Source: Thermalbibacter longus
Lineage (GTDB): Bacteria > Chloroflexota > Chloroflexia > Thermomicrobiales > Thermomicrobiaceae
Assembly (NCBI RefSeq): GCF_023806485.1
Contig: NZ_JAMSLR010000004.1
Coordinates: 62,001 to 126,000, forward strand
Length of the DNA: 64,000 bases
Direction: 5' to 3'
Part shown: piece by piece, positions 12,198 to 52,287 of the stretch
Position numbering within the stretch: the stretch's first letter is position 1
Layout: every line of letters begins with the position of its first letter
Position numbers and translations under genes: made by a program
The notes under the pieces: model-generated
Told to the model about the DNA's origin: nothing
Databases searched by the model: none
The model's input: only the letters and a program-made list of their open reading frames with translations

Positions 12198-14073
12198 TGC
12201 CCATCTCCACTTTCCAGCCTTGTGGGTTGTCCGGAGTATAGGTCAGGCAGCGGCGCTCGAAGCACTGGATGAGCACGTCTTTCTCCTGGCCACCGACCTT
12301 CACGCGGGCCCAGTAGGCCTCGGTAATCGGGAAACCGGTGGCGAAGAACGTGGGCTCGAACAGGCGGCCGGGAACGAAGTCGGCCCCATCCCAGACGATG
12401 CTCTCCTCCTGGAGGTATTGCCAGAAGACATCGGCGATCGTGTGGTTCGTCTCCGGCACGTAGTAAGCGGCGAAGACACCGCCGGGGCCATCCTCCACGA
12501 TGGTGCCGTCGCGGTGCACTCGGGCACGAATCTCCCGGCCGACCTGCGCCGCTGGGGCGGCCAGCAGGGAGCGGAGCGTCGCGTATGTCGGCCCGGTGCG
12601 GTCATCCAGGTCACCCGCGACCGGGATATTCGCCGGCTCGTGGTCGACGAACTGGCTGTCGCCGACTTGAAGCTGGCCGGTGATCAGCTCGCGCACCAGA
12701 AGGCCGTTGGTCACGAACCAGCGGCTCGAGCGGTCACCCGACGGCTGGTTCACCTCCATCCGGCTCTTGTCCCAGTACTGGACGGCTCTCCGGCCGCCAG
12801 CGGCGTCGGCATACCGCTCTTCCAGCGTCAGGAAAGGCTCCGGGCCCCAGATCCAGGTTCGCGCCACGGCGCCGGCAGCAACTGGCCGGTCCTCGCGGTC
12901 CCACACCGCTCTCCAGGAGCGCATTACCACTGGACTAATCGCCGAGGGTTGCCAGGCAGCCCAACCGGCCCGCTGGAGGCTGCCCGTCTGGCCAGCCCGC
13001 AGGTCGCGGACGATGACTTCCGGCGGCTTCCCGTGCGGCGTATCGAGGAACGCTAGACGGCTCCCGTCAGGCGAGACGGCCAGGAGCATCCGGTAGTCAT
13101 CAGGTACCAGCACGGTTCGCTCGCCGCTGCTGAGATCCAACCGCGTGACCATCGTCGGGTAGCTCCGGGCGACGTAGGCAAATCGACCCAGCGGGTCGAC
13201 CCAGACGTAGCTTTCCGGCAACGCTTTCGAGGGGTAGCCGATCGGCAAGTCGGCGAACACGCGCTCCTGCAGATTGTTGAGGTCGAGTACGACGAGGTCA
13301 TCCCCACCGTTGCGGAAATCCAGAAACAGCAGTCGCTGCCCGTCAGGAGTGATTTGGAACGGTCCGCTGCACGGGTTCGGGAAGCGGTTGGCGATCCGCC
13401 GCGCCGTACCGCTCTGCACGTTGTAGCTCCACACGGTCGCGTCGGCAGCCGAGGCATACAGCAGCCGCAGGCTGTCTCCAGCCCAGGTGAAGGCCCCGAA
13501 GGAGCGGGCCGCGATCCTGGTCTGCCCGCTCGCCAGGTCCACCCAACCGAGCTCGAGTACCGGGCAATCGGTGTAGTCCGGCACGCCAGTGGGGCGAGTG
13601 AAGCCGAGATAACGCCCATCCGGAGACCAGACCAGGCTCGTTGCGCCCACCTGGTATTGGCCGGCTGGCTCGCCGTCGCGGTTGACGACCTGGACGGTGC
13701 CCTCATTCACATACGCCAGCCAGCGCCCATCCCACGACCAGGCGGGATGGATGCCCGGCCCCAGTTCGCGGGTTACTGGCTCGGGGAGGAAGCGGGCGAG
13801 ACCGACGACACTGCGCCCGTCGCGCAGGAAGGTGTAAGCTAGCCGATCGCCGTCTCCCGACCAGACCGCGCCGGTAACCGCAACGCCATTGGTAAGCTGT
13901 TGCCGCCAGTTGCCCTGATCGTCGCCGATCCAGAGCGTGCGATCGCGATCGATGTAGGCCAGCAGCCGTCCCGGCTCGACCGTGGCGGCGGAGGCGGTCG
14001 AAGCCGGCAGCGACGTGAGCGTGAGTGCCAGCACGAACAGCGGTATCCACCAGGACTGTCGTCGTGCGCTCAC
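12157..14073 (-). CDS. Secreted TolB-like beta-propeller protein with a C-terminal PETGH/FGYP module
   Basis: This 638-residue protein begins with a clear signal peptide (hydrophobic core PLFVLALTLTSLPAS, cleavage near ASA). Residues of about 35-370 contain repeats of the WD40-like/TolB propeller type, such as AVWSGDGDRLAY, PAWSWDGRWLAY and LVWSPDGRYLGF. After a middle region (RAVQYWDKSRMEV, VTNGLLVREL) the last ~100 residues hold PETNHTIADVFWQYL, TGFPITEAYW and QCFERRCLTYTP. This module is also found twice in the L,D-transpeptidase at 54328. The protein is probably extracytoplasmic and structural or ligand-binding. The start is GTG. It is followed by the glycosyltransferase gene in an apparent operon. 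Confidence 0.82.
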   Translation of the reverse strand: MSARRQSWWIPLFVLALTLTSLPASTASAATVEPGRLLAYIDRDRTLWIGDDQGNWRQQLTNGVAVTGAVWSGDGDRLAYTFLRDGRSVVGLARFLPEPVTRELGPGIHPAWSWDGRWLAYVNEGTVQVVNRDGEPAGQYQVGATSLVWSPDGRYLGFTRPTGVPDYTDCPVLELGWVDLASGQTRIAARSFGAFTWAGDSLRLLYASAADATVWSYNVQSGTARRIANRFPNPCSGPFQITPDGQRLLFLDFRNGGDDLVVLDLNNLQERVFADLPIGYPSKALPESYVWVDPLGRFAYVARSYPTMVTRLDLSSGERTVLVPDDYRMLLAVSPDGSRLAFLDTPHGKPPEVIVRDLRAGQTGSLQRAGWAAWQPSAISPVVMRSWRAVWDREDRPVAAGAVARTWIWGPEPFLTLEERYADAAGGRRAVQYWDKSRMEVNQPSGDRSSRWFVTNGLLVRELITGQLQVGDSQFVDHEPANIPVAGDLDDRTGPTYATLRSLLAAPAAQVGREIRARVHRDGTIVEDGPGGVFAAYYVPETNHTIADVFWQYLQEESIVWDGADFVPGRLFEPTFFATGFPITEAYWARVKVGGQEKDVLIQCFERRCLTYTPDNPQGWKVEMGNVGRHYVLWRYGG

Positions 14074-34238: not shown

Positions 34239-36825
34239 GCTGGCTGAGTGCCTGCTCGCCTCGCGCCGGCCGCTCGTCGCCGGGCAGAAGGTGCCACTGC
34301 GCAAGGCTGAAGCCGAGGGGGGCTGCGGCGTCATCGGCATCGCCTCGAGCCAGCCGCTGGCCGGGAAGCATCTCCTGCAGGCACTCATCCAGATGCGCAA
34401 CCGCGGTAACGGCAAGGGTGGCGGGATCGCTGCCGCCGGGCTCGATCCAGCCTTCTTCGGGGTCTCGCCTCGTCTGCTGCAGAATGACTACCTGCTGGCC
34501 GTCGCTTACCTCGACCGCTCGGTTCGCCCCGAGGTGGAAGCTGGGTTCATCGAGCCGGTCTTCATCGTCGATCACGTCCACCGGCTCCGCGCGTTGCCGG
34601 ATTTCCACACCTTACCCGGCTTGGAGGTTCCCCCGCCGGAGGTGGTCTGCTACTTCGCCCGTGTTCGCCCCGAGGTTCGCGCGGCCTTCATGCGCGCGCA
34701 CGGCATCCCGGAGCGGCACGCCGAGGCGGCGGAGGACGAGATCGTCTACCAGAACACGTACCGGCTCAATCGCGCCTGGTATGCCGCGAGCGGCGAGAAG
34801 CGCGCATTCGTCCTCTCACACGGGAAGAACCTGCTGATCCTCAAGCTGGTCGGCCACGGCGACGACGTGGTGCGCTACTACCGGCTGGAGGAGCTGCACG
34901 CCCACGTCTGGATCGGGCACCACCGCTACCCGACCAAAGGGAAGGTCTGGCACCCGGGCGGCGCGCACCCGTTCCTCGGGATGCACGACGCGCTCGTCCA
35001 CAACGGGGACTTCGCCAACTACGCGTCCATCTGCGCCTACCTCGCCCAGCGCAACATCTATCCCCTGTTCTTAACCGACACGGAAGTGGCCGTGCTGGTC
35101 TTCGACCTTCTCCACCGGACTTACGGGTATCCGCTGGAGTACCTGATCGAGGCGATGGCCCCCACGACCGAGCGCGACTTCACCCTGTTGCCACCAGAGA
35201 AGCAGCGCGTCTACGGGATGCTCCAGACCGTCCACATACACGGCTCGCCCGACGGCCCCTGGTTCTTCCTGATCGCCCAGTCGGTCCCAGCGAGCCGGGC
35301 CTGCCGGTTGATCGGGATCACCGACACCTCGATGCTGCGGCCGCAGGTCTTCGCCCTCCAGCAGGGAGAACGCTCGATCGGCTTTGCCGCCTCGGAGAAG
35401 CAGGCGATCGATGCCGCGCTGGAGAGCATCGCGCAGGACGACCCGCGTGTCTGGCCCAGGGCCGACCTGTACTGGAACGCCCGCGGCGGCAGCCACACGG
35501 ATGGCGGCGCGTTCATCTTCACCGTGCAGTTCGACGGGAGCACCGGCGCAACGCCCACCTGCACCGACAAGTTCGGACGCCGCATCGCCCCGGACCCGCG
35601 CAAGCGGCCGCTCAGCGGTTGGCCGAGCGCGCCGGCCGTCGTCCAGAATGGCGCTCCGCCCGGCATCGACTTGGACGTGTCCCCCGAGGAGCTGTTCGCT
35701 CAACTGCGGGAGCGGCTGCCCGCCTGGGACTACGGCGAGGTCGCTGGGCTTCTGGCGTCGCTGGAGCGCCTCGCTGCCGGGAACGACGAGGACCGCGCGC
35801 GGGCCATCGCAGCCCTGACGCTGCTCGTCGACCGCCGCTACCCGACCGGAGCCATGAAGCGAAGCTGCGTCCTGGCGCTGGCCGATCGGAGACTGGCCGT
35901 CATAGTCGATCAGATCCGGCGCCGGCCGACGCCGGGGTATGCCTGGATGGGCTGGGAGAGCCCGCTGCCGTCGCCATTCGATGAGCGCACCATCCTGGTG
36001 ATCGATGCCCGCGGCTTTCCCTCGGAGGGGGAACACTCGCTGGCACGCGCCCTCGTGGCTGCCTACGAGCGCAGCTTCCGCAGCATCATCGTGGCGAACG
36101 TCCGTGGCCAGCGCTTCCTCGGCTGCGGGCTAGGGCCGAACTCGCACGGCGTACGGGTCGACGTCTACGGTTCCTCCGGTGATTACCTCGCCTCCGGACT
36201 GGACGGTGCCGAGATCGTGGTGCATGGCAGCGCCCAAGACCAGCTCGCCCAGATCATGAAGGACGGCACATTGATCGTCTACGGCGATGTCGGCCAGACG
36301 TTCGGCTACGCCGCCAAGGGTGGTCGCGCCTTCATCCTCGGGAATGCTGCCGGGCGGCCGCTGATCAATGCGGTCGGCCGGCCGCGCGTCGTGATCAACG
36401 GCACCTGCCTGGACTATCTCGCCGAGTCGTTCATGGCCGGCGATCCGCTGGAGGGCGGTGGCTTCGCGATCCTCAACGGGGTGGCCTTCGACGAGGACGG
36501 CCGGCTGCACGAGCTCGACACGCCGTATCCCGGTGGCAACCTCTTCTCCCTGGCCTCTGGCGGAGCGATCTACGTGCGTGACCCGCGGGGCCTCCTCGAC
36601 GAGAGCCAGCTCAACGGCGGCGAGTTCGCTGCGCTGACGGCGGAGGACTGGGCGTTGATCCGGCCTTACCTCGAGGAGAACGAGCGTCTCTTTGATATCC
36701 CGGTGGACTTCCTGCTCAGCGTGGACGGGCGCCGGCTGCGGCCAGAGCAGGTCTACCGCAAGATCCGGCCCGCCGGCCACGAGGCGCTCATGCCAGAAGA
36801 AGCCTGGATCAAGCGCATGGCGTGA
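34207..36825 (+). CDS. Glutamate synthase glutaminase (GATase II) fused to GXGXG domain
   Basis: This 872-residue protein begins with about 39 residues that look like a propeptide, after which Cys40 (EGGCGVIGI) would be the N-terminal nucleophile of a class II amidotransferase. Glutamine-site motifs HHRYPTKGKV and HPFLGMHDALVHNGDFANY follow. From about residue 595 the GXGXG beta-helix of glutamate synthase appears (NVRGQRFLGCGLGPNSHGV, GDVGQTFGYAAKGGRAFILG). The FMN domain normally between them is absent and encoded by the preceding gene. It starts at ATG with GGGAG upstream and overlaps the previous gene by 32 nt. It supplies ammonia to the synthase subunit. Confidence 0.9.
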   Translation: MSRQTPSDQVRLAECLLASRRPLVAGQKVPLRKAEAEGGCGVIGIASSQPLAGKHLLQALIQMRNRGNGKGGGIAAAGLDPAFFGVSPRLLQNDYLLAVAYLDRSVRPEVEAGFIEPVFIVDHVHRLRALPDFHTLPGLEVPPPEVVCYFARVRPEVRAAFMRAHGIPERHAEAAEDEIVYQNTYRLNRAWYAASGEKRAFVLSHGKNLLILKLVGHGDDVVRYYRLEELHAHVWIGHHRYPTKGKVWHPGGAHPFLGMHDALVHNGDFANYASICAYLAQRNIYPLFLTDTEVAVLVFDLLHRTYGYPLEYLIEAMAPTTERDFTLLPPEKQRVYGMLQTVHIHGSPDGPWFFLIAQSVPASRACRLIGITDTSMLRPQVFALQQGERSIGFAASEKQAIDAALESIAQDDPRVWPRADLYWNARGGSHTDGGAFIFTVQFDGSTGATPTCTDKFGRRIAPDPRKRPLSGWPSAPAVVQNGAPPGIDLDVSPEELFAQLRERLPAWDYGEVAGLLASLERLAAGNDEDRARAIAALTLLVDRRYPTGAMKRSCVLALADRRLAVIVDQIRRRPTPGYAWMGWESPLPSPFDERTILVIDARGFPSEGEHSLARALVAAYERSFRSIIVANVRGQRFLGCGLGPNSHGVRVDVYGSSGDYLASGLDGAEIVVHGSAQDQLAQIMKDGTLIVYGDVGQTFGYAAKGGRAFILGNAAGRPLINAVGRPRVVINGTCLDYLAESFMAGDPLEGGGFAILNGVAFDEDGRLHELDTPYPGGNLFSLASGGAIYVRDPRGLLDESQLNGGEFAALTAEDWALIRPYLEENERLFDIPVDFLLSVDGRRLRPEQVYRKIRPAGHEALMPEEAWIKRMA

Positions 36826-36834
36826 TGGAATTCC

Positions 36835-36872
36835 TGGGTGAGGCTGAGGTTTTATAGCCTCAGCCTCACCCA
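36835..36872. terminator. Bidirectional terminator between glutamate synthase and methyltransferase
   Basis: A perfect 15-bp stem (TGGGTGAGGCTGAGG and its complement) with an 8-nt AT-rich loop separates the convergent units. The methyltransferase stop codon sits inside the loop. It is strong enough to act in both directions. Confidence 0.8.
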
Positions 36873-37985
36873 CACGTCATGCTCCTCGAGTGGATCGCGT
36901 GTCGTCGTAAAGTGCATCGCCTGGCGCTTTCCGCGAGCCGCTGAGCCCGCGGACCGGATCGCTTCGATTTCCCATCCCGTATTCACCAACGATCGCTCTA
37001 GGAGGTGTAGCGGGTCGACACGGCGGTCGTGAATACGACCGAAGCGAATGATCATCCGCGCATTTGTGTCAGCCACACTGGCTACAAGACTCCAGACACC
37101 GCGCAAATCGCGGGCGAACGTCTCCGCGCTGCTGTGGGAGATTTGGCCGTTCTGGCTGTAGTCGGGCCATGCTGGACCCCCGAGGAACCAGAGCCGGAGC
37201 CACTGGTCTGGGCGATAGGTTCGCATACCGTAGTACGGTGGAGAAGTCACGATCCACTTGAAGCGGATACCGGAGAGCTGCGCGAAAGTGGCTGGATTAC
37301 GGCTGTCGGCTTCGATAATCCATCCCCGCGCTGGCGGCAGAGCGGAGGCGTAATAACGCTGCGCCCGAGTCGCTACGATGTCGACCAGGTCGACCCTCTC
37401 GGGCTGAAGGTCACGAGCACGCCAGAAACGCACGGCGTAGGCTGGTTTTGGTGCGTATGTACGTGGGGCCTGGTTAGACAGATAGGTTGGCCGGCATTTC
37501 GCTCGTGGACCGTGGAGCGCGCCCAAGATCACGGCTCGTAAGGCTTGGCGCTCCGGGGTCGTGCAATTGCGCAACAGTTCCTCGCGTAACCGACATAGCT
37601 CGAAGAGCACATCTGGATGGAACGCGAGTTCCCAGAAGTTCCCTTCAGGAACCGAATCCGGTGGTGGTGCGCTCTCGAGAATTGCGAGCAGCTCGTCGAC
37701 GATTGCCTGTGGAGAGACATCCAGCAGCTTGGCCTGGGCTATCGCTGCAGCGACGGGATGGCTATCGATCCCTACGGCCGGAAGCCCGCACAGACGAGCG
37801 GCGAAGACAGTCGTTCCGCGCCCACAAAAGGGATCCAGAACCCATTCACCTGGGGAAGCATAGGAGCGGAGGATGCTGAGAGGGAATTCCAGCGGGAACA
37901 TGGTGAAATACGGACAGATTGCGTTGAGTCTGCTACATGTAGGCATTGCCGATCTGTCATTCGAAACAGCTACCCAAAGAGTCAC
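36852..37985 (-). CDS. DNA methyltransferase (N4/N6 amino-type) of a HerA-NurA cassette
   Basis: This 377-residue S-adenosylmethionine-dependent methylase has YFTMFPLEFPLSIL at the N-terminus, motif I LDPFCGRGTTVFAARLCG at about residues 50-67, an acidic AdoMet ribose contact VGIDSH, and catalytic motif IV TSPPYYG at 247-253. The TSPPY form is used for N4-cytosine or N6-adenine methylation. The order motif I before motif IV places the likely target-recognition region between or after them. GTG at 37985 is chosen because AGAGGAG lies 7 nt upstream and the codon overlaps the herA stop (GTGA), showing coupling. Its base composition is lower in GC than flanking genes. It probably marks host DNA against the neighbouring nuclease. 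Confidence 0.85.
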   Translation of the reverse strand: MTLWVAVSNDRSAMPTCSRLNAICPYFTMFPLEFPLSILRSYASPGEWVLDPFCGRGTTVFAARLCGLPAVGIDSHPVAAAIAQAKLLDVSPQAIVDELLAILESAPPPDSVPEGNFWELAFHPDVLFELCRLREELLRNCTTPERQALRAVILGALHGPRAKCRPTYLSNQAPRTYAPKPAYAVRFWRARDLQPERVDLVDIVATRAQRYYASALPPARGWIIEADSRNPATFAQLSGIRFKWIVTSPPYYGMRTYRPDQWLRLWFLGGPAWPDYSQNGQISHSSAETFARDLRGVWSLVASVADTNARMIIRFGRIHDRRVDPLHLLERSLVNTGWEIEAIRSAGSAARGKRQAMHFTTTRDPLEEHDVWVRLRL

Positions 37986-40186
37986 GTTGTCTCTCCTCTT
38001 GGTCCGCACCTGATCCAGGTACGATTGCCGTCTCTGGTGGTGTGCCAGCCCCCCGCGCGTTCTGGGCCATAGAGTCGGTTAAGGACAGTAGGCACCAGCT
38101 TATAAGCGAGTTCGTCACGATCGAGAATATCTTTTGGAAGCGAATCTCGGATCACCGCCTGGAGTCGTCCCCACGGCATACCCCGTGACTCGAGTTCCTT
38201 CCTGATATCCTCATTGTCCCGCACCGCTTTCACCGCGAGAAGTTCGTATACATGCATCGGATCGAGCTCGGTAACCGGTTCGTCTATCGACTCCGTCGAG
38301 GTGGCTGCTACTTCCGAGCCGGGATTCTGGCTGGTAGAAGCGATAGTTTCGACGCGAGTAGTCTCGACACCTGTATGACCGGCGTACCCGTCTCCATTGC
38401 TCGAGATCACGCCTGCCTGGTGTGCAGCTCGCAAGATGCGTTCCTCGGCCTCCCGCCGAAGTTTCATCGCATAGGTATCGGCAGCAGCTTCGCAGTACTC
38501 GGGATCGCGCAACGGTGTCAGCTTTTCGAAGGAGAGTGCGCGTATCGGTACCGGATAACTTCGATGCCCTGAAACCGACGACCAGAAAACTCCCTGCCCT
38601 ACGATGGGCTCGTTGAGCAGAGCGCTCAGTAAGTCCTCGCTGAAATGGGCATTGGCAGCGTTGAGTGCTGCCAGATCGGCACGTGACAGAAGGTGGAAAA
38701 TGAACCAGTTATCGCCCTGGCTCAAAATCTCCTTCGGAATGCTGCCTGGCTGCTGGGTCACCATCAGCGCACCTAGGTCGTACTTTCTTCCCTCCTTGAC
38801 CCACGTGATATAGGGTTCGGTGCCTGACTTTCGCTCATCGAGAACGGCCTGTGCTTCCTCCACCACGGCAATAACTGGAATCGTCTCTGGATTCGCTGCT
38901 GTAAAGTGCTCTTGGTTGTGGTCGAAGATATATCGAAGGATCAATCCAGACAGAATGAGTGCCTGGCCACCGCTCATCTGCGAGACGTCCACGACGCAAA
39001 GCTTTCCCGCCTTCAGCGCGTGCAGCAACAGCTCCATCAACTGGCTGTGCGGGTCGTGGATCATGTTCACGATGGTTGCCATGTTAGATCGTGCCGCAAG
39101 CGCTTCGGCTTCTTGGCTACTCTCGAGGCCCAGAAGTTCCTGTATTCTTCCTAACTCTGCCTGGTATCCGTGATCGTGGATCAAATTGACCAGTTCCCGC
39201 CAGTTGTGGTCGTTGAGCGCTGCAAGCTTGCGAACGTTCTGCTGCTCCTGGCGATCTGCTGGGAGCGCGATTCGAATTACGTCACGCGGCCTGAGTGTGC
39301 GAATGTCGAGTTTAGTGCTGCCCGCGACGAAGGACCCGTAGAACGCACTGGGCGCCCGGCGAGAAGTGAAGACTACAAGCTTGTCTTCAAGCCAGGGCAC
39401 GTCGCACAGCCCTGGACGTCCCTTGTCATCGGGCCAAAAGTATTCGCCATCTGGATCGAAGATGATTGTGCCTACAGGAACTTGACGTCCACCTCGCTTG
39501 AGTACTGTCGGCGTATTTCTGTATAATTCGCTAAAGAGCAGTTTTATCAAGTTCGACTTTCCGAACCCGGCGCGCGCGAAAACAAATGAGCGTCGCGAAA
39601 CGAGATTCTCGACCGGAAATCTGATCTGAACCTCCGGCGACTTGACCTGCATCCAGGCTTGCGGTTGGAGAAGTTCGCTGCCTTCGGCATAGATGTACTC
39701 ACCGAGTGCGAGATGACCGATCACTGCTCCTGGATCGTTATGCCCTGCGATCTCCTGTAAGACGGGGGGAGAGGCGAAAGCGACCGGGCTGCCGAGATGC
39801 GGTAGGCGGCGATGTGATGGCACGAACAGGAGCTCTTCATCCCGGGCGCGCAGTACTCCGAGCACTCGAATGTTCACGCGGTACTTTAGGTAGTCCTGTC
39901 GCAAATCCTCCGGTACGGGGCGTCTCTCGCGAAGTGCTCGCAACGTAAACTCTTCTCCTGCGCCTTGGGCAAGTTTGCCCGCTGGCTCGAAGGCTGTGAT
40001 TCGTCCGAGCACTGCCTCCTCGGGAGTCTCGAGTTGAACCAGAACAAACTGACCATGCATCGGCACGCTCTGGAACTCGCTCCGATACGGCAAGACGAGA
40101 TCTGCATGGAACTCCATGCCGCCCTCGCGAAAGCCGATGAAGACACCGACAATTTGGTCGTCCGGGAAGAGCTTGAAGGTCGGCAT
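37982..40186 (-). CDS. herA: HerA-family ATPase/DNA translocase
   Basis: This 734-residue protein has an N-terminal beta-barrel (HAS-barrel-like, to about residue 150) and a FtsK/HerA ATPase core. Walker A is ARAGFGKSN near 204-212, with Ala in place of the first Gly. Then come FDPDGEYFWPDD, Walker B PVIAVVEEAQ near 437-446, and MVTQQPGSIPKEIL, a sensor segment. A helical, acidic tail follows. HerA hexamers pump DNA through the ring and work with the NurA nuclease, encoded 13 nt upstream. GGGGGGTG precedes the ATG. It may drive resection of unmethylated or invading DNA. Confidence 0.9.
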   Translation of the reverse strand: MPTFKLFPDDQIVGVFIGFREGGMEFHADLVLPYRSEFQSVPMHGQFVLVQLETPEEAVLGRITAFEPAGKLAQGAGEEFTLRALRERRPVPEDLRQDYLKYRVNIRVLGVLRARDEELLFVPSHRRLPHLGSPVAFASPPVLQEIAGHNDPGAVIGHLALGEYIYAEGSELLQPQAWMQVKSPEVQIRFPVENLVSRRSFVFARAGFGKSNLIKLLFSELYRNTPTVLKRGGRQVPVGTIIFDPDGEYFWPDDKGRPGLCDVPWLEDKLVVFTSRRAPSAFYGSFVAGSTKLDIRTLRPRDVIRIALPADRQEQQNVRKLAALNDHNWRELVNLIHDHGYQAELGRIQELLGLESSQEAEALAARSNMATIVNMIHDPHSQLMELLLHALKAGKLCVVDVSQMSGGQALILSGLILRYIFDHNQEHFTAANPETIPVIAVVEEAQAVLDERKSGTEPYITWVKEGRKYDLGALMVTQQPGSIPKEILSQGDNWFIFHLLSRADLAALNAANAHFSEDLLSALLNEPIVGQGVFWSSVSGHRSYPVPIRALSFEKLTPLRDPEYCEAAADTYAMKLRREAEERILRAAHQAGVISSNGDGYAGHTGVETTRVETIASTSQNPGSEVAATSTESIDEPVTELDPMHVYELLAVKAVRDNEDIRKELESRGMPWGRLQAVIRDSLPKDILDRDELAYKLVPTVLNRLYGPERAGGWHTTRDGNRTWIRCGPRGETT

Positions 40187-40199
40187 CTCTACACCCCCC

Positions 40200-41342
40200 T
40201 CAGTAGCGCCTGGTCGCCGGGTCGACTGTCTGTAGACGGAAGATGTCCAGGACGGGCGCTTCACACTCGAGGGCTTGTCGAATCCCCTCGAAAACTTCAT
40301 CCTGCAGGATGTCGAGATCAAAGTCCACGAGTGCCGCGTTCTCATGGGCGCGCTGGAGACAGCGCGGGTAATAGGGTATAGGAAAGCCCTCGATTGCGTC
40401 TGCTAAAAGGCAACCAAGGATCGTTTGTGCTTCACTGCGCTGTTGGCTGAAGATATCGACCGGCCAGATAGGATCTCGTGGTCCGGGACCAAACTTGACT
40501 AGAAACATATTTCCAGCCACGTACTTATTAATCTCTCCTGTGACATCGCGATCATCACCCCTGGCATATTCTGTCCAAACATATGCCTTCTCTTCAATCT
40601 CCCGAGGTACTTCGACGTAAGCTGGATAGGGGCAGGTTAGTACACCCTCGAGGGCCATCGCAAGGCGATAACGATCGAGAACCTTGCTGTGCTTGGCTAA
40701 TCCCACCAGGTAAATTCGACGGTGATGCCGCCTAAATTGTTCTTGAATGCCTTCCCATAAACCTTGACGCACGCGAGCAAAGAGATCACGACTGAAAATC
40801 TTGCTTCGGAGCAGCCCATCGAACACGATAAGCGTATCGGTGGCGAAGTGGTATTCGCGTACCAACGTGAAGAGAATTGCCCATTCGACAAGCTCGCGGT
40901 AAACCTGGATCCAGACGCGTGAGACCGGATGACCATCCGAAGTCGAGCGTGGGATCATGGGGCTCAGCTCATAGAGCTCACTCTGACCGAGATAATGCAT
41001 GAGTCGGCCGAGAGCCGTTACCGGAGCACCGTTCTCGTCGAATTGTCGCCGGGCAAGGGCTCTTACATCAGTTGTCGGTGTGACAACCTCCAGGCAGTAC
41101 TCGTTATTGCTCGAGTCGACTACGCGCACAAGTTGCACCAGGAAGGGATCGAACCGGAGGTGTATATTGCCTCCGTCTGTAGCCACGAGGGAAACAGCGG
41201 TCGTTGACCGGGGTTGAATACGGCGCATCTGATTTACAAGCGGCCGAATTTCGTCGCGAAGGCTGTCGAGCAGTGCGCGATCACTCGCCATGCGCTCGAT
41301 GATCTCCTGCCGGAGCCGTTGTCGACTTTCCGAGTCGATCAT
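40200..41342 (-). CDS. nurA: NurA-domain nuclease
   Basis: This 380-residue protein has the NurA hallmarks: a first catalytic Asp in SLVATDGGNI (Asp56), a second in LIVFDGLLRS (Asp175), and the C-terminal segment DAIEGFPIPYYPRCLQRAHENAAL seen in NurA proteins. NurA is a Mn-dependent 5'-3' exo/endonuclease that forms a dimer on the HerA ring. It is the first gene of the cassette; an AGAAGGG site precedes the ATG. The base composition is distinctly low (40501-40560 is 26/60 GC), which suggests acquisition by transfer. Confidence 0.85.
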   Translation of the reverse strand: MIDSESRQRLRQEIIERMASDRALLDSLRDEIRPLVNQMRRIQPRSTTAVSLVATDGGNIHLRFDPFLVQLVRVVDSSNNEYCLEVVTPTTDVRALARRQFDENGAPVTALGRLMHYLGQSELYELSPMIPRSTSDGHPVSRVWIQVYRELVEWAILFTLVREYHFATDTLIVFDGLLRSKIFSRDLFARVRQGLWEGIQEQFRRHHRRIYLVGLAKHSKVLDRYRLAMALEGVLTCPYPAYVEVPREIEEKAYVWTEYARGDDRDVTGEINKYVAGNMFLVKFGPGPRDPIWPVDIFSQQRSEAQTILGCLLADAIEGFPIPYYPRCLQRAHENAALVDFDLDILQDEVFEGIRQALECEAPVLDIFRLQTVDPATRRY

Positions 41343-41736
41343 GGCGGACCCTTCTGGTTGAAACGAAAGCGGTGCTGGCCCAATAATACTCTAGCTTTCG
41401 CCGGGACGATAATTCCTGCCGACTCTTCTTTCATCGTGCTACAAGGGAACTGGGCGGCCTTGCCAGAACCGGTCAGCGACAATACGTTATGCTGGCTGAG
41501 GATTCGGGTTACCTTCCCGCACGGGAACTGACCGCTGCTATGGTGAATTTTTCCTCCAGCGCACCGCTCAGACACTAGGCCGATGCGTCGGGACGCGCCG
41601 AACAGTCGCTGATCCGCACCCGGAAAACCTGGAGATAACCGCCAACTGCCGGGGTACTAGCCGGACTCGCCAGTCATCAGGCTCTGCCTGCATAGATTCA
41701 CGCAGCGCCTCGCCGAGAAGACATCACTCGTCGCCG
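41343..41736. other. Intergenic region upstream of nurA
   Basis: No gene is seen. On the minus strand AGAGTATTATTGG near 41380 contains a good -10 (TATTAT) for the nurA-herA-methyltransferase operon, without a clear -35. The region marks the right border of the low-GC cassette. Confidence 0.45.
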
Positions 41737-42984
41737 TTACGACGTGACGTGAACGGCTGGCTCGAAGGCGAAGACGGCCTTGATCACCCCCGAGGAGCCC
41801 TTGCTGGTCACGGTCTCCAATGCCTGCCGGTAGTCGGCTAGCGCGAACCGGTGGGTCACCAGCGGCTTCAGATCGACCACCTTCTGTGCCATCAGGCGAA
41901 CGGCTAGCCGCACTGCGTCGACCTGCTCACCACAGAACTCCTCGACCGCGTAGGCCACAGCCCCTCGGATCTCGACCTCGTGCAGCCATACCGGTGTCCA
42001 GTCCACCCCGCTCGGCGTGCTGGCCAGCCCGACCAGCACCACCCGGCCGCCGGCCCGCGCCAGCCGCAGCGCGTCGTCGATCGTGCGGCCGCTGCCCACG
42101 CAGTCGAACACGATGTCGGCGCCGCCCTGCACCAGTGGCCGGCCGATCACCGGCTTGAGCACCTCGGCACCGGTAAGCTGGGCTACCTGCCGGTAGAGTT
42201 CGGCCCCGCGGCGGGCGCGCAGCACCACATCGGCCCCGAACCGAGCCGCAGCCTCGGCCTGGAACGGATAGCGGGCGGTGACGATCACCCGCGCCTTCGA
42301 CCCGGTCGCCCGGATCGCCGCCACGGTCAGCAGGCCGATCACCCCGGCGCCGATCACCAGCACCGTCTGTTCGTCGCCCGGCCGGTTGCGCAGGACGGCG
42401 TGCAGTGCCACCCCGAACGGCTCGGCCAGTACCGCCTCTTCGTCCGAGAGCGTGGCCGGCACCGGGATCACCTGCGAGCGGTGGGCGACGAAGCTCGGGC
42501 TCCAGCTCCCACCGGTGTCGCGGCAGAAGCCGATCATGGTGCCGGCGGAGACCGTCCCCTGGTGGAACCGCAGGCACAGGTTCGGCTCGCCGCGCGCGCA
42601 GTTCGGGCACAGGTCGCGGAAGCCGCGGGTGACGCAGCCGAGCAGCGGGTTGACGACCACGCGCTGGCCGACCTCGATCCCATCGACGGCGTTGCCCACC
42701 TCAGCGATGATGCCCACGTTCTCGTGCCCGAGGGTGAACGGGAACGAGGTGACCGCCGAAGCGGCCGTGCTGGCGTGGAGCAGGATGGTGCCCAGGTCGC
42801 TGCCACAGATGCCACCGTAGCGTGTAGCGATCCGCACCCATTCCGGCGTCGGCAGCCTCGGCTCGGGCACGTCGCGGAGCTGGAGGCAGGCGAGGTCGCT
42901 CCAGTAGATCGAGCGGGCGACTCTTCCGAGCGCTTTCGTCAGCGCATAGCGCGGAACGCTCTGGATGAACTGAAGCGCCTGCAC
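41737..42984 (-). CDS. Zinc-dependent alcohol/polyol dehydrogenase
   Basis: This 415-residue medium-chain dehydrogenase has catalytic-zinc ligands in GGICGSDLG, GHENVGIIAEVG and an AEPFGVALHA Glu, and a structural zinc lobe with cysteines in CVTRGFRDLCPNCARGEPNLC, where the first spacing is longer than usual. The NAD-binding fold has VLVIGAGVIGLLTVAAI. It likely oxidises an alcohol or sugar alcohol to the carbonyl compound. It starts at GTG with GGAGG 7 nt upstream. It is followed on the same strand by no close gene, and the deacylase gene precedes it with a 71-nt gap, so they may share a transcript. Confidence 0.88.
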   Translation of the reverse strand: MQALQFIQSVPRYALTKALGRVARSIYWSDLACLQLRDVPEPRLPTPEWVRIATRYGGICGSDLGTILLHASTAASAVTSFPFTLGHENVGIIAEVGNAVDGIEVGQRVVVNPLLGCVTRGFRDLCPNCARGEPNLCLRFHQGTVSAGTMIGFCRDTGGSWSPSFVAHRSQVIPVPATLSDEEAVLAEPFGVALHAVLRNRPGDEQTVLVIGAGVIGLLTVAAIRATGSKARVIVTARYPFQAEAAARFGADVVLRARRGAELYRQVAQLTGAEVLKPVIGRPLVQGGADIVFDCVGSGRTIDDALRLARAGGRVVLVGLASTPSGVDWTPVWLHEVEIRGAVAYAVEEFCGEQVDAVRLAVRLMAQKVVDLKPLVTHRFALADYRQALETVTSKGSSGVIKAVFAFEPAVHVTS

Positions 42985-45898: not shown

Positions 45899-46633
45899 TC
45901 AGGCGCCACGCGTCTTTCGCCACTCCTCGTACTCGAGGCGTGCCTCCTCGGTGAGCGGGTAGTACTTCCGGAGGTCACCCCCGGCAGCGAGCATCTGGCG
46001 GGAGAACTCCTCCCACTCCGCATGTGCGGTGGCCTCCTCGACCACTTTCGGGGCGAGCGCGACCGGAACCACGACCGCGCCGTCGTCATCGGCGATGATG
46101 ATGTCCCCAGGCATCACCAGCCGGTCGCCGCAGGCGATCGGCACATTGACCGCGAACGGGACGATATCGGTCTGGGTGTGGAAGTTCGGGGTGACCCCGC
46201 GCAACCAGAGACCGAGGCCGAGTTCCTTGACCTTCGGATAGTCGCGGATGCAGCCGTCGATGACGACGCCGATGCCGCCCTTGGCCTTGAAATACGTGAG
46301 CATCATCTCGCCGAAGACGCCACTGCCCAGGTGGCCGCGCGCATCGACGACCACCACGTCGCCTGGCTGGGCACGGTAGAGGACGTGCCGATGGAGCTGG
46401 CGCTCTGGATCGGAGTACTCTTCCAAGCCGTACATGTCCTCACGCTTGGGCATGAACTGGAGCGTGAGCGCTGGCCCGACGACTTTTGCCCCTGGTGACC
46501 AGCAGGTAAGGCCGCGCAGGTGCGAATCGCGGATCCCGAGCCGGTTCAACACGCCTGTCGCTGTCGCGCTGCTAATCTGCTGAAGCGCTGCGATCAGAGC
46601 TGGATCTGGGCGTTCGATGTCACGGACGTCCAT
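45899..46633 (-). CDS. RraA-family protein (HMG/CHA aldolase-like)
   Basis: This 244-residue protein of the RraA / 4-hydroxy-4-methyl-2-oxoglutarate aldolase group has VVVVDARGHLGSGVFGE for the phosphate-like loop and GGIGVVIDGCIRDYPKV with the conserved Arg-Asp pair that binds substrate and divalent metal. True RNase-E inhibitors are shorter; a C-terminal extension (WEEFSRQMLAAGGDLRKYYP) is typical of sugar-acid aldolases. It would cleave a 2-keto acid produced by the dehydratase next door. ATG at 46633 has GGAG upstream. It is the last gene of the IclR-controlled operon. Confidence 0.85.
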   Translation of the reverse strand: MDVRDIERPDPALIAALQQISSATATGVLNRLGIRDSHLRGLTCWSPGAKVVGPALTLQFMPKREDMYGLEEYSDPERQLHRHVLYRAQPGDVVVVDARGHLGSGVFGEMMLTYFKAKGGIGVVIDGCIRDYPKVKELGLGLWLRGVTPNFHTQTDIVPFAVNVPIACGDRLVMPGDIIIADDDGAVVVPVALAPKVVEEATAHAEWEEFSRQMLAAGGDLRKYYPLTEEARLEYEEWRKTRGA

Positions 46634-46681
46634 CGTACCTGTCTCCTCGTTTACTCGCGCCGCCAGCGGAGACACACGGGC

Positions 46682-47872
46682 TCAGTCGAAGAAGTCCCGA
46701 TCTTCCTCCGAAAGATATGCGCGTGCCGCCTCGACGTTGAAATCGACACCGAGACCGGGACGATCCCAGACCTCGATAAAGCCGTCACGAACAATCGGAG
46801 AAGGCAACCCGGTGACGATATCGTACCACCATTCGGGACGAGCCACTGGATACTCGAACGCGATGAAATTGTCCGGTAGAGTAGCCGCTACCTGAACCAG
46901 CGCCGCAAGCCCGATGAGACCGTCGAAGATGCCGTGTGGCGCGAAGAGGATGCCGTGGAGGTCAGCGTACTCGGCAATCCACTTCAGTTCAGCGATTCCA
47001 CCGACATCGGCGGGATCCGGCCCCAGGACGCGCACCGCCCGCTTTTCAACGAGATCGACGAAGTTCTGCCGGAGATAGATCTGTTCTCCGGTGTGGGTGG
47101 GTGTCGTCGTGCGCGTGGTGACCTCACGGTAGAGGTCTGCCAGCACGTAGGGGGTATAGTCGCCGGTGATCAAGTCCTCTAGCCACAGAATGCCTAGCGG
47201 TTCGACCGCTTGGGCGAAGCGGATCGCGTCCGGCACCGTCCATCCTGGCCCGCAGTCGAGAGCCAGCCCCACTTCATCGCCCAGGACTTCTTTCATCGCT
47301 TCCACGCAAGCGACCAGGTGCTTAAGCCCGCGCTCTGTCAACGGTCCTCGATTTGGGTACCGCGTGCCTGTGCGAAATTCGCCGTACATCGCATCCGGGA
47401 GATGGCCGAGCATCGGGCCGTGATAGCCGATTGCCTGCTTGATAATCGTGAAACCCTCAGGGGCGGCCTTCATCTTGGCCATGTTTTCAGCGAAATCTTG
47501 CGGCTCATAGCCGTTGAAGGGGAAGCGGACTCCGCCGTTGTAGACGCGTACGCGGTCTCGCACCTTGCCGCCGAGGAGCTTATAAACGGGCAGACCAGCG
47601 GCCTTGCCTGCGATATCCCACAAGGCCATCTCGATGGCGCTGACAGCGCTCCCCCAGGGCTTGAATGCCCCGAGCCGCCGAATCTTGAGCATGACGCGCT
47701 CGACATCGGTCGGATCCTCTCCGAGGATGAAATCCTTATAGAAGAGCACCTGGGGCTTCAGGTACGGCTTCGTGGTTTCGATCTGGCCGTAACCGGAAAT
47801 ACCCTCGTCCGTAACGATGCGAACGACGGGACTCTGTCCGATAACTGCACACTTGAGATCGATAATCTTCAT
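46682..47872 (-). CDS. Enolase-superfamily dehydratase (mandelate racemase-like)
   Basis: This 396-residue barrel protein has metal ligands in ALDCGPG (Asp), WLEDLI (Glu) and HTGEQIY (Glu), and a base in FAPHGIFDG (His). It fits the mandelate racemase/acid-sugar dehydratase subgroup that removes water from aldonic or aldaric acids to give 2-keto-3-deoxy acids. The KxK motif of racemases is not clearly present (TIIKQAIG). It lies between the permease and the RraA-family gene, so it probably acts on the imported sugar acid. It has its own ATG with GGAGGGATAC upstream. Confidence 0.88.
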   Translation of the reverse strand: MKIIDLKCAVIGQSPVVRIVTDEGISGYGQIETTKPYLKPQVLFYKDFILGEDPTDVERVMLKIRRLGAFKPWGSAVSAIEMALWDIAGKAAGLPVYKLLGGKVRDRVRVYNGGVRFPFNGYEPQDFAENMAKMKAAPEGFTIIKQAIGYHGPMLGHLPDAMYGEFRTGTRYPNRGPLTERGLKHLVACVEAMKEVLGDEVGLALDCGPGWTVPDAIRFAQAVEPLGILWLEDLITGDYTPYVLADLYREVTTRTTTPTHTGEQIYLRQNFVDLVEKRAVRVLGPDPADVGGIAELKWIAEYADLHGILFAPHGIFDGLIGLAALVQVAATLPDNFIAFEYPVARPEWWYDIVTGLPSPIVRDGFIEVWDRPGLGVDFNVEAARAYLSEEDRDFFD

Positions 47873-47995
47873 GTATCCCTCCAGATCACAGTCCCCGCAG
47901 CGACTCGCTACGCCAGGCGAATCATCCGCTCGGTGAGCTCTCGGTGACCCAACATCAGGGGGCTAGGGCCTATGGGCTGGTTGCTCCGTCCGATC

Positions 47996-48880
47996 TCATG
48001 TCTTGAGTGCGCCTTCGGTAAGCGCACGGACGAAGTAGCGCTGGAGAACCATGAAGAGGACGACGACCGGGATGCTCATCACGAAAGACGATGCCATCAA
48101 CCCGGGCCAGTCGGTCACGAACTCGCTGAAATAACTTTGGAGGCCGACGGGCAGGGTCATCAGCTCGTCGCTGTTCAAGAACGTAAGGGCATAGAGGTAC
48201 TCGTTCCAGGCCTGAATGAAGACATAGATCGCCGCCGCTACGATCCCCGGCACCGAGAGCGGCATGACGACACGCACAAAGGCAAAGAATCGCGTCGCCC
48301 CATCGACGAGCGCAGCCTCTTCGAGCTCGGTCGGGATATTGTCGTAGTAACCCTTGAGAAGCCAGATGGCCAGGGGCAGGCCAAAGGTCATGTAGGTGAT
48401 GATCAGGGACGCGTGCCGGTCGACCAGGCCGAAGGTGCGCATCAAGATGAACAGCGGGATAAGGAAGACTACAGCAGGAAACATGTTACGCACGAGGATC
48501 GTCATGAACAGCAGCCGACGTCCCGGGAATCGGAACCGCGAGAATGCATAGGCCGCCGGAACCGCCACGGCCGTGCCGAGTACTGTCGTCGCGGTTGAGA
48601 CGATAAAGCTGTTCAGGAGATAGCGTAGGAACCACCGACCGCCTTCCCCGCGAGGATCGAGCAGCTTCGCGTAGTTCTCAAACGTCGGCACTTCCGGAAT
48701 CCAGCGTGGTGGCTGCTGCATCGCAGCGACCTGCGACTTGAACGATGTGGAGATCATCCATGCCATGGGAAGTAGCACGAAGAGAAGCAGGAGACCGATA
48801 GTCAGCGCGGCCAGGACGAGATGGGGTTGTATCCACGGTCGAGGCCGTCCGCCAGGTCGAGTCGACACGGAAGCGCTCAT
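47996..48880 (-). CDS. Carbohydrate ABC transporter permease, MalG-like
   Basis: This 294-residue membrane protein has six predicted helices and the cytoplasmic EAA loop EEAALVDGATRFFAFVRVVMPLSVPG that docks the ATPase. The ATG at 48880 overlaps the stop of the preceding permease as ATGA, which fixes the start and shows coupling. The C-terminus ends GALKT, as in the CUT1 family. No ATPase gene is in the operon, so it must share an MsiK/UgpC-like ATPase encoded elsewhere. Confidence 0.9.
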   Translation of the reverse strand: MSASVSTRPGGRPRPWIQPHLVLAALTIGLLLLFVLLPMAWMISTSFKSQVAAMQQPPRWIPEVPTFENYAKLLDPRGEGGRWFLRYLLNSFIVSTATTVLGTAVAVPAAYAFSRFRFPGRRLLFMTILVRNMFPAVVFLIPLFILMRTFGLVDRHASLIITYMTFGLPLAIWLLKGYYDNIPTELEEAALVDGATRFFAFVRVVMPLSVPGIVAAAIYVFIQAWNEYLYALTFLNSDELMTLPVGLQSYFSEFVTDWPGLMASSFVMSIPVVVLFMVLQRYFVRALTEGALKT

Positions 48881-49824
48881 CGTACCGTATCCTCCTTGGT
48901 GAGCGCGCGCACGTAGAGGTAAGCGAAAACGAGCACGATTGCAAACACGATCGTGGAATATGCCGAGGCCAGGCCGAACTGGAGCGATCGGAACGCTATC
49001 GTGTAGATGTCGATACTCCAGATCTGCGAAGCGCGCGCTGGGCCTCCGCCGGTCATGAGCCACGGGATGGTGAAGTGCTCGAGATTGCTGATGAGGAGCA
49101 GGATGAACGTGACGAAGAGCACGTTGCGCAGATACGGGACGGTCACGTGCCAGAAGCGCCTCACCGCAGTTGCACCATCGATTGCAGCCGCTTCGAGCAA
49201 CTCCCGCGGCACGGTCTGCAACCCCGCCAGGGTCATCACCATCACGAAGGGGAACGTTTTCCACACGTTCACCACAATGAGTGCTGGAATGACAAGCGTC
49301 GGAGAGTCCAGAAAGAGAATCGGTCGGCTGATCAGTCCAAGCTGCATTAAGAAGCCGTTAACCAACCCGAAGTCCGCGTGGTAGAGCCACCGCCAGACAT
49401 ACGCCGCCGTGACCGTGCTGATGACCCATGGGATGAGTAGGAGCCCTCGCAAGATCCCCTGTCCCGGCAGACCTTGATTAAGGGCGAGCGCTGCCGGGAT
49501 CCCCAGCGCGAAGGCGAGGATCGTCGACGGCAGCGCCCAGTAGACCGTGTTGAGAGTCACGTCGAAAAATTCGGCGCTGGTAAGGATGGTGCGGTAATTG
49601 CCCAGGCCAGTCCAAAAGCGACCAGGTAAGGAGGGAGGCGTCTCGTAGAAGCTCAGAACCAATGTGTAAACAATCGGGTAGCCGACAACGAAAACCAGTA
49701 CCGCGAGCGCGGGCAGGATGTATGCATAGTCGGCGGCTACTTCACTGGCCCGAGAACGCCCTTTCGTCGCCCCGCGTCTGCCCGGAAGCGCTCGTACGGC
49801 TGGACCTCGTCCTGCGTGGTCCAT
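48877..49824 (-). CDS. Carbohydrate ABC transporter permease, MalF-like
   Basis: This 315-residue permease has six hydrophobic helices and an EAA loop LLEAAAIDGATAVRRFWHVTVPYL. The N-terminal ~45 residues are polar and Arg-rich (RGPAVRALPGRRGATKGRSR). ATG at 49824 is chosen because GGGGGAG lies just upstream; a longer frame shows no similarity. It overlaps the next permease by 4 nt. It is preceded by the solute-binding protein gene, so it is the CUT1-type channel for the operon's sugar acid. Confidence 0.9.
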   Translation of the reverse strand: MDHAGRGPAVRALPGRRGATKGRSRASEVAADYAYILPALAVLVFVVGYPIVYTLVLSFYETPPSLPGRFWTGLGNYRTILTSAEFFDVTLNTVYWALPSTILAFALGIPAALALNQGLPGQGILRGLLLIPWVISTVTAAYVWRWLYHADFGLVNGFLMQLGLISRPILFLDSPTLVIPALIVVNVWKTFPFVMVMTLAGLQTVPRELLEAAAIDGATAVRRFWHVTVPYLRNVLFVTFILLLISNLEHFTIPWLMTGGGPARASQIWSIDIYTIAFRSLQFGLASAYSTIVFAIVLVFAYLYVRALTKEDTVR

Positions 49825-49841
49825 CGGTACTCCCCCGCATG

Positions 49842-51428
49842 TCAAGACGGGCGCTGCTTCATCAAGGCTTGGATCTTCTCCGCCGCGTCGTTCGCTGCCT
49901 CCTTGACGTTCATCTTGCCCGTAAGCGCGTTGTGGATCATATCCGGGATGATGATGTTCATGATCTGGGTAGATTCGGGGACTACCGGGAACGGTACCCC
50001 GTACTTGAGCATCGCCGTCGTAACCTCGAGGAACCGTACTTGCTCGAGTCGCTGTTGCATCCAGGACGTGCGAAACGCTTGCAGGGTGCCAGGGTTCGAA
50101 GAAGCCCACACCGCTTTAATTGACCATTCAGGGCTGCATCGGAAGGCGATGAACGCGCGAGCTGCCGTGCGGTCAACTTTGCCTCCACGGACGAAGCGCT
50201 CGTTGAAGATGTGGATGTTCGAGCCGCCGAGCACGACTGCACGGCGAACTGGACCCTCAGGGAGCAACGCGTATCCGATGTTGTCGAGGAGTTGCATCGC
50301 CCGTTCTTTGTCGGCGCCAGTCGCCTTGTTCGCGCGATCGACCATGACCGCGAACTCGGAGGGATGCCCGATATACATTCCAAGCTGGCCGGCGAAAAAG
50401 AGATCCGTATTCTCCGCGTTCGTATTTGTCAAGGCGCTTGCGGGCACGGACTGGTCGCGAACGAAGAGATTATAGTAAACTTCGAGCGCGGCGATACTTC
50501 CCTCGTTATTAATGAGTGTCGACTGGTAGGTCGGAGATTCCTCTGCCTCGTCGAATGCCCCGCCCCCGTACGCCCACACGATAGGCATAAATCTGAACGG
50601 AGTGTTGCCATGGTTCTGGCGCGCGACCAGGCCGTAGCCATACTTGCCGGTCGCGTCCTTAATCTGCTTTGAATAGGTGACCAGATCTTCCCAGGTCTTG
50701 GGGGGTTGTTCAGGATCTAGCCCAGCCTCTCGGAAGAGTTGCTTGTTCCAGATGAGCGCCATGCTCTCGTTGTTGGTGGGCAGACCGTACAGCTTGCCCT
50801 GCCAGCGGCAGGACTTGAGCGCGCCGGGCCAGAAGTCACTCTCCTTGAAACCGAACTCTTCTGGCGATATTTCGGCGAGCTGACCCTTAGCAGCGAACTC
50901 GACACCCCACAGGATCGGCATGGTTGCAACCATCGGGGCTGCGTTTCCGGTGGCAGCCGTGCGGATCTTATCCAGCATGTCAGCGTAGGTCAGTCTCTGC
51001 ACGTCCGTGGAGATGCCAGGATAGGTGGACTCCCAGGCATCCCAAAACTGCTTGTCGAAGTCTTTCGAAATCTGAGGATCGGTCTCAGCTGGGCCAATGT
51101 ACCAGTAGCTGAGGTTACCCGTAGTCTCGAGCGGCACCACTGAGGATACGAATGCCTTTGTGTCGGTCTCGCCGATCGTTCCGGCGATCTCCCTGACGTA
51201 ATCGGGTGACCATTGGGACAGGTCGATCTCCACCGCCTCAGTGGTCGTGGGAGTGCTGGCCTGGGCTTGTGAGGGCGCGGTTGACTGACCAGAAGGCTGA
51301 GGCGTGGGTGTCGGCTGAGCTGTTGGGGTCGGCGTTGCCGCTGGTTCGCCGCCACAGGCAGCGAGGAGCACGGAACCAGTCGCTGCTCCAGCCAACACCA
51401 GGAACTGCCGTCGGCTGATGCGTCCCAT
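49842..51428 (-). CDS. Extracellular solute-binding lipoprotein
   Basis: This 528-residue protein starts with a twin-arginine-like signal (SRRQFLVLAGAA) and lipobox LLAAC, so it is likely exported folded and lipid-anchored. A Thr/Pro-rich linker of about 45 residues (PTPTAQPTPTPQP) separates the anchor from a type-I sugar-binding fold (family 1) with WGVEFAAKGQLAEISPE and LYGLPTNNESMALIWNK. It binds the operon's substrate, probably an oligosaccharide or sugar acid. The ATG shares a base with the stop of the regulator (TAATG), and GGAGGAGG precedes it. Confidence 0.92.
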   Translation of the reverse strand: MGRISRRQFLVLAGAATGSVLLAACGGEPAATPTPTAQPTPTPQPSGQSTAPSQAQASTPTTTEAVEIDLSQWSPDYVREIAGTIGETDTKAFVSSVVPLETTGNLSYWYIGPAETDPQISKDFDKQFWDAWESTYPGISTDVQRLTYADMLDKIRTAATGNAAPMVATMPILWGVEFAAKGQLAEISPEEFGFKESDFWPGALKSCRWQGKLYGLPTNNESMALIWNKQLFREAGLDPEQPPKTWEDLVTYSKQIKDATGKYGYGLVARQNHGNTPFRFMPIVWAYGGGAFDEAEESPTYQSTLINNEGSIAALEVYYNLFVRDQSVPASALTNTNAENTDLFFAGQLGMYIGHPSEFAVMVDRANKATGADKERAMQLLDNIGYALLPEGPVRRAVVLGGSNIHIFNERFVRGGKVDRTAARAFIAFRCSPEWSIKAVWASSNPGTLQAFRTSWMQQRLEQVRFLEVTTAMLKYGVPFPVVPESTQIMNIIIPDMIHNALTGKMNVKEAANDAAEKIQALMKQRPS

Positions 51429-52210
51429 TAAGCACCTCCTCCGAATCCGAGTTGAGCCGCGATCTGCGTCGCGGCCTCCTTCACTGCCGGCGCCACGTCT
51501 TGAACCCGATCATCAGTCAATCTGGTCTCGGGCCCAGAGACGCTGATCGCAGCGATGGGGTACTGGGACGCGTTCAGGATGGGCGCTGCGATACAGCGGA
51601 TCCCTTCCTCGTTCTCCACGTTGTCTAGTGCGTACCCGCGTGCGCGGATATCTTCGAGTTCGGCAAGCAGCCGCGCGGGGTCGAGAATCGTGTTTCGTGC
51701 TCGTTTGATCAGGGTGATTCGCGACAGCACGTCGTCACGCTGTATGGTCGGCAGGAAGGCCAACAGCGCCTTGCCTAGAGCTGTGCAGTAGACGGGATTT
51801 CGGGTGCCAACGACGGAATAGAGGCGTGCCGATTTCGGAGTCTCGTACTTGTCGAGATAAAGAACTTCGGTTCCGTCGAGCATTCCCAGGTAGACGGTCT
51901 CCCCAACTGCTTGCGCGAGTGTCGAGAGAATAGGGCGGGCAACTGTGGGAAGGCTCGTGTAATCGAGCAAACCACGTGCCAGGCGCAATACCTTCGAGCC
52001 TAGCCGGTAGCGCCCATCCGCTGTCGTCGTCAGGTACCCGCGCCCAGCCAGGGTTGTCACTAATCGGTGCGCTGTCGGGCGCGTAAGACCGCACTGTTCT
52101 GCTATCTGGCTTACCGAGAGTGGACGGTGCTCCGTCGCAAAGCAGTCAAGAATGTCCAGTGCTTTCAGTACAGTGGACGAGATTTGCCGTCTGCCGTTCT
52201 GACGAACCAT
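51428..52210 (-). CDS. IclR-family transcriptional regulator
   Basis: This 260-residue regulator has an N-terminal winged helix-turn-helix (VLKALDILDCFATE, SVSQIAEQCGLTRPTAHRLVTTL) and a C-terminal GAF-like effector domain (GLLDYTSLPTVARPILSTLAQAVGETVYLGM, ISVSGPETRL). It senses a small carboxylate and controls the downstream transport and catabolic genes, with which it overlaps. ATG at 52210 is chosen because AAGGATA lies about 9 nt upstream; 52243 is a weaker alternative. The operon promoter just upstream contains a palindrome that may be its own operator. Confidence 0.92.
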   Translation of the reverse strand: MVRQNGRRQISSTVLKALDILDCFATEHRPLSVSQIAEQCGLTRPTAHRLVTTLAGRGYLTTTADGRYRLGSKVLRLARGLLDYTSLPTVARPILSTLAQAVGETVYLGMLDGTEVLYLDKYETPKSARLYSVVGTRNPVYCTALGKALLAFLPTIQRDDVLSRITLIKRARNTILDPARLLAELEDIRARGYALDNVENEEGIRCIAAPILNASQYPIAAISVSGPETRLTDDRVQDVAPAVKEAATQIAAQLGFGGGA

Positions 52211-52287
52211 GATGGGCAGTATCCTTTTGTGACCGTTGTCCATTATGCGGACATCTGCTCAGAACACAGCGTGAAAGGCTATTTGCG

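Follow-up and report, generated by a model that had tools for sequence, protein, structure and literature searches.

Our study of a 64,000-nucleotide stretch of the Thermalbibacter longus genome (the window) identified three adjacent minus-strand genes, encoding a putative NurA/TdpB-like nuclease, a HerA-type translocase and a DNA methylase, and the NurA-HerA-methylase triplet to which they belong is a real module that recurs in other genomes. We consider it likely that this cassette is a mobile, restriction-modification-like anti-invader system working on a TdpAB-like engine, a defence reading supported by association and homology. Restriction-modification logic had already been suggested by a sequence-only reading of the same DNA, and the recurrent linkage and homology described below are in favour of it.

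The cassette and its genomic setting

The nuclease gene (40200-41342, 380 aa), the translocase gene (37982-40186, 734 aa, DUF87) and the methylase gene (36852-37985, 377 aa, GTG start) form the tight operon that the sequence-only reading had described, with ORFs and junctions as given there: the HerA start lies 13 nt downstream of the NurA-like stop, and the GTG start of the methylase overlaps the TGA stop of HerA as GTGA. Reading of the flanking genes assigned them to glutamate synthase and alcohol dehydrogenase. The strong hairpin noted at the cassette end was recovered at 36835-36872, with 15-bp perfect arms (36835-36849 and 36858-36872), an 8-nt loop and a stability z of -6.2 against shuffles, where the methylase and glutamate synthase genes converge at their 3' ends. 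We hold a role as a terminator to be plausible and go no further, because the hairpin is without a T-tract and its loop contains the methylase stop codon region. Promoter and terminator scans gave scores no better than shuffles, and Rfam returned no match.

The cassette is, as had been claimed, lower in GC than its surroundings (0.569 compared to 0.656 for the window, with 7 of 596 same-size windows equally low), and the stretch of the window below 0.585 GC is centred on it. Low GC was nevertheless rejected as proof of foreign origin, as the signal is unspecific: the catabolic ABC-transporter operon found at 46.5-52.3 kb is GC-poor as well. This second low-GC block (45899-52243) was read as an IclR-type regulator, a sugar-type ABC transporter and mandelate-racemase-like and RraA-like genes, and looks like an acquired catabolic operon.

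Three congeners carry the same flanks at 82-90 % identity with ~1.6 kb between them, compared to 4.9 kb in the window. Congener nucleotide identity ends at about the glutamate synthase stop (36821) and restarts at the end of the alcohol dehydrogenase gene (41759), leaving an acquired segment at 36822-41758; in G002, the ~1.6-kb segment encodes LmbE-like and MerR-like proteins. Among the 60 relatives searched, the nuclease was found in 0/20 same-family genomes and in one same-order genome at 64 % identity, with another giving a marginal, partial match only. The patchiness anticipated by the sequence-only reading was therefore seen, and the opposite pattern, a triplet kept at this locus with normal GC in all relatives, was not. 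A canonical NurA is encoded elsewhere in the source genome (G000:C78) and in 3/3 congeners, and the source genome holds two further DUF87 genes.

Recurrence, mobility and neighbourhoods

Scanning a genome collection with the nuclease yielded 13 loci, 12 of them full-length at 57-67 % identity (the L013 nuclease is a fragment only), with record titles that span Terriglobia, Chloroflexus, delta-proteobacterial, Firmicutes, Myxococcota, Phycisphaerales, 'Cyanobacteria' and Acidobacteriota. HerA was adjacent in 12/12 of the full-length scan loci and the methylase was present in 11/12. Adding the window, G037, G154, G395, G144, G407 and the viral contig L083 gave a set of 19 full-length NurA-family loci, in which HerA was adjacent in all 19 and the same methylase lay beside the pair or within ~3 kb in 15 (14/18 once the near duplicates L006 and L008 are counted as one). 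Within a sample of 400 genomes from the phylum, two gave strong methylase matches and both belong to the five that carry NurA, an overlap with a chance of ~1e-4 by our own calculation. Co-occurrence of the three families, which the sequence-only reading had proposed as a check, thus extends to many phyla, with a gene order that varies: NurA-HerA-methylase in the window, L001, L004, L070 and L083; methylase-NurA-HerA in L069; and a convergent methylase in L003, L006 and L009-L012. That the order is not fixed argues for functional linkage rather than an inherited neighbourhood. Trees of the three genes were congruent across all loci (Mantel r 0.89-0.93), but significance was lost with the seven distant lineages, so the congruence comes from shallow clades only and we give it little weight.

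The methylase, treated from the outset as a part of the cassette, accompanies most loci and is not obligatory. Four of the 19 NurA-HerA loci are without it (L002, G154, G395 and G144), and NurA-HerA may therefore function without the methylase. G154 has a different DNA methylase next door and G144 an AccI-like restriction-modification system ~4 kb off, and no methylase or restriction-modification gene was seen near L002 and G395.

Other arrangements were also observed. In L066 (6502-12660), the genes immediately upstream of NurA-HerA encode an N4/N6 methylase of a different kind (TSPPF) and an overlapping HEAT-repeat protein of 505 aa, and L012 holds a truncated second NurA-HerA copy (11168-12902) near its intact triplet. 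The locus of L008, a metagenome-assembled genome (MAG) titled Cyanobacteria, is nearly identical to that of the Phycisphaerales MAG L006, and we therefore suspect a mislabelled or mixed bin.

A second, deeply diverged NurA branch was found through distant methylases in the same-phylum genomes L071 and L072, which sit with HerA-like and NurA-like genes. The L072 NurA-like protein has a Cys-rich insert in addition to IDGS, DGPLA and EKSG motifs, and it matched a hypothetical protein of a Halorarius plasmid (L088; 27 %, E 2.6e-39) and the annotated NurA of the Deferribacter megaplasmid pDF308 (L087; 19 %, E 1.4e-16), both of which also carry HerA and a methylase. The order is HerA-NurA-methylase in L072 and L088, and methylase-HerA-NurA in L087. 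Profile comparison between the two NurA branches was weak (E 0.0042, probability 8 %), and their relation is drawn from shared motif order and context. On pDF308 (L087:6953-13426), the HerA gene within the methylase-HerA-NurA cluster is split by an IS200/IS605 TnpA-TnpB element.

The cassette moves between very distant bacteria, as well as a phage and plasmids, one of them archaeal. Horizontal spread is seen in that identity reaches 57-67 % across phyla while the nuclease is absent from the 20 same-family genomes and other DNA takes its place in the congeners. In the class of the Phycisphaerales genome L009, the NurA family was found in 4/298 genomes; known plasmid and phage collections lacked a close NurA relative. 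On the viral contig L083 (1079-12044), the triplet is phage-borne cargo, with the gene of the terminase large subunit on one side and head protease/decoration genes on the other.

Defence and mobile-element neighbourhoods, expected by the sequence-only reading, recur among the loci, in a raw listing of neighbours. The L003 cassette abuts HsdR, HsdS and HsdM; the L009 cassette has Type III Mod, a DrmD-like helicase and AbiU as neighbours, and the L010 cassette Type III-like genes; in L005, GmrSD-N and HEPN genes separate HerA from the methylase. In L106 (6519-16023), DruA (PADLOC E 2.5e-177) and a DruE-like helicase in convergent orientation flank a diverged pair of NurA and HerA, which match the window profiles at E 8e-88 and 8e-202; this is possibly a Druantia variant that uses NurA-HerA. 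No other restriction gene was seen alongside the window cassette or those of L001, L004, L070 and L083.

The nuclease, translocase and methylase

The claim of a NurA-type nuclease stood in its fold and motifs and less well in its sequence. The window protein had no match in Pfam, PADLOC or NCBIfam (PADLOC 2023 has no model for it), sequence-only searches of the PDB returned nothing, and PF09376 (NurA) was matched by 5/12 homologues (best E 0.0015) but not by the window protein. Foldseek with an AlphaFold model of low confidence (pLDDT 59, shallow alignment) placed TdpB first (8wfd_G, E 9.5e-7, prob 1.00) as the sole significant PDB fold match, and the second match, Sulfolobus NurA (2ygk, E 0.085), was below significance. 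D56-G-G, E150/E153, D175-G-x-L-R-S-K, K217-x-S-K and H333 are invariant in the 12 homologues, an order that we take to be that of the NurA active site. The protein is thus probably a NurA/TdpB-like nuclease, a label that is weak by sequence and draws on TdpB/NurA fold likeness and ordered conserved motifs. In Thermococcus kodakarensis NurA, the N-terminal Asp D49 is essential (PMC12977600).

HerA, a translocase of the hexameric type, matched PF01935 (DUF87; E 8.9e-20), and its closest solved sequence was TdpA (8wet), at E 1e-16 for the window protein and E 2.8e-26 for a 12-sequence profile; archaeal HerA (7e-17 with the profile) and the known anti-phage HerA structures ranked behind. Both Walker regions, A and B, are covered by the profile match to TdpA, and the Walker A motif ARAGFGKSN and the Walker B region VVEEAQ are near-invariant among the homologues. 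Within PADLOC, the window HerA was matched by HerA-clade models plus mad8 and DndH only, and the Type I/III motor models were unmatched. Residues 642-734 (37985-38263, minus strand) lie outside the TdpA alignment and have a predicted winged-helix-like fold (pLDDT 90, helices followed by a beta hairpin as the wing). This segment had no significant match in the PDB, where the weak matches were largely winged-helix domains, and it is a candidate domain for reading DNA or a partner.

The third gene is the TSPPY-type DNA methylase that had been named from the sequence, with matches to PF01555 (N6_N4 methylase; E 1.5e-15) and, among solved structures, to 2zie (E 1.7e-12). Motif X/I (DPFCGRGTT) is N-terminal and motif IV (TSPPYYG) C-terminal, and since motif I precedes motif IV, the enzyme is permuted in the order X-I-IV. 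It is probably of the N4-cytosine type, to which TSPPY presumably points. Catalytic-motif residues of all three proteins are invariant or near-invariant across 12 homologues.

The wider methylase family was also encountered in other settings. Lone distant relatives (LWGHxxHPMCSYLxSFPA proteins, L073-L082) recur in a single same-phylum family, where neither HerA nor NurA accompanies them. On two rhizobial plasmids (L085:8965-14315 and L086:8965-14324), a 41-43 % identical methylase is convergent with a ~1415-aa protein, which in L085 has SF1 helicase domains, giving the same methylase family with another motor; both pairs sit amid other defence-like genes.

Proposed function and comparison with known systems

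In the anti-invader system that we favour, the methylase would mark the host chromosome at a specific site, probably as N4-methylcytosine. A HerA ring on duplex DNA would use ATP to feed that DNA to a NurA dimer, which would degrade what is threaded into it; the mark would halt the process, so that marked DNA is spared and unmarked DNA destroyed. The winged-helix-like domain of HerA may help to read DNA or contact the methylase. Self-protection by the methylase, its chemistry and target site, the sensing of the mark and phage restriction are elements that we infer. There is biochemical precedent for the degrading step: HerA-NurA breaks down the ends of dsDNA and possibly has an antiviral role (PMC12977600). 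The four NurA-HerA loci that lack the methylase are the chief difficulty for this reading; also counted against it are the members of the wider methylase family that are solitary or paired with an SF1 helicase, and the low confidence of the NurA model.

A broader proposal, which we advance tentatively, is that NurA-HerA of the window clade acts as a general-purpose, DNA-destroying plug-in, recruited by a variety of marking or sensing modules. Its partners would include the methylase, in two deep branches and in both bacteria and archaea, TdpC in TdpABC, and the Druantia genes of L106, where DruA-NurA-HerA would face DruE; other restriction-modification systems possibly recruit it too. In the window cassette, the destroyer would be a translocating ring nuclease gated by the methylation state of the threaded duplex, as opposed to one that cuts endonucleolytically at a specific site.

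An unlikely explanation makes NurA-HerA a general end-degrading clean-up nuclease that sits in defence islands and destroys DNA cut by other restriction systems, with no gating and the methylase an accessory, either a modifier protecting against a co-resident restriction-modification system or a regulator. The four loci without the methylase, the restriction-modification genes beside or near NurA-HerA in L003, L009, L010, G154 and G144, and the published HerA-NurA complexes that degrade DNA from ends (PMC12977600) would fit such a role. However, the window, L001, L004, L070 and L083 keep the methylase, sometimes translationally coupled, where no other restriction gene was seen, and the methylase is found again in both of the deeply diverged branches and in several gene orders.

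We regard as very improbable an inverted logic in which invading or replicating DNA is what the methylase marks, or in which HerA-NurA recognizes modified DNA in a Type IV-like manner. The present data fit either direction of the mark, and in two Myxococcota-labelled loci HerA and the methylase are separated by GmrSD, a restriction family that depends on modification; yet the methylase would then methylate, and hence target, its own genome, and the nearest relative, TdpAB, reportedly spares modified self DNA. Least credible of all is housekeeping DNA-end resection with the methylase as a chance neighbour, for although in archaea and Deinococcus HerA and NurA are known to process DNA ends as a pair (PMC4351679, PMC9960219), the cassette is not a housekeeping locus, as 20/20 same-family genomes are without the nuclease, the congener slot differs, a conventional NurA lies elsewhere in the source genome and congeners, and the methylase linkage recurs across phyla.

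If the mobile, restriction-modification-like reading is true, the cassette would represent a class in which restriction is carried out by a HerA-NurA degrader and not by a site-specific endonuclease, and the mark, whether methylation or phosphorothioation, would be swappable on one conserved effector. The cassette is also relevant to the question of whether HerA-NurA pairs serve in repair or against viruses, which recent biochemical work (PMC12977600) has reopened, and as a small three-gene system it is open to direct testing.

The triplet was not described in the literature searched (NurA with HerA, methylase or defence), which lay mostly outside subscription papers, and its novelty, also proposed by the sequence-only reading, is accordingly provisional. 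The D. radiodurans m4C papers (PMC10855626, PMC6712171) were rejected as precedent, as they cite HerA/NurA only as a repair pair and the restriction-modification system there uses a GIY-YIG enzyme. Housekeeping HerA-NurA of archaea and Deinococcus shares the same two protein superfamilies and the adjacency of their genes, whereas the cassette is patchy, mobile and methylase-linked, with a very divergent NurA and a canonical NurA co-resident. The HerA-SIR2 and HerA-DUF4297 anti-phage systems likewise couple a HerA ring to an effector (PMC11291478, PMC12977600), but the cassette effector is NurA-like, with no SIR2 or DUF4297, and a DNA methylase is included. MADS (mad1-8) and the HerA/FtsK capture systems contain a methylase and/or a HerA-like ATPase; the cassette HerA matches mad8 (E 4.3e-11) as a generic HerA, no other mad genes are present in the cassette, and the capture-system papers (PMC10853773, PMC12839542) do not mention NurA. 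Type I/III restriction-modification systems also combine a methylase, an ATP-driven translocase and a nuclease, but the cassette motor is of the HerA/FtsK clade rather than SF2 and the cassette has no specificity subunit (HsdS/Mod). With restriction-modification-like systems at large, it shares a DNA methylase genetically coupled to a nuclease (GTGA overlap; 15/19 loci).

TdpABC is a phosphorothioate-based three-gene organisation for modification plus degradation, of which TdpA and TdpB make up the restriction half. The cassette differs from it in that the third gene, in the place of TdpC, encodes a SAM-dependent DNA methylase, with nothing that qualifies as TdpC, presumably the phosphorothioate-installing enzyme, in the cassette or its flanks, and in that its HerA has the extra C-terminal winged-helix-like domain. 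The two are alike as compact modification-plus-degradation sets, with TdpA the best solved-sequence match of the cassette HerA and TdpB the best fold match of the nuclease. As both effector subunits have their closest relatives in TdpA and TdpB, the logic of the cassette has a near precedent that the sequence-only reading had missed.
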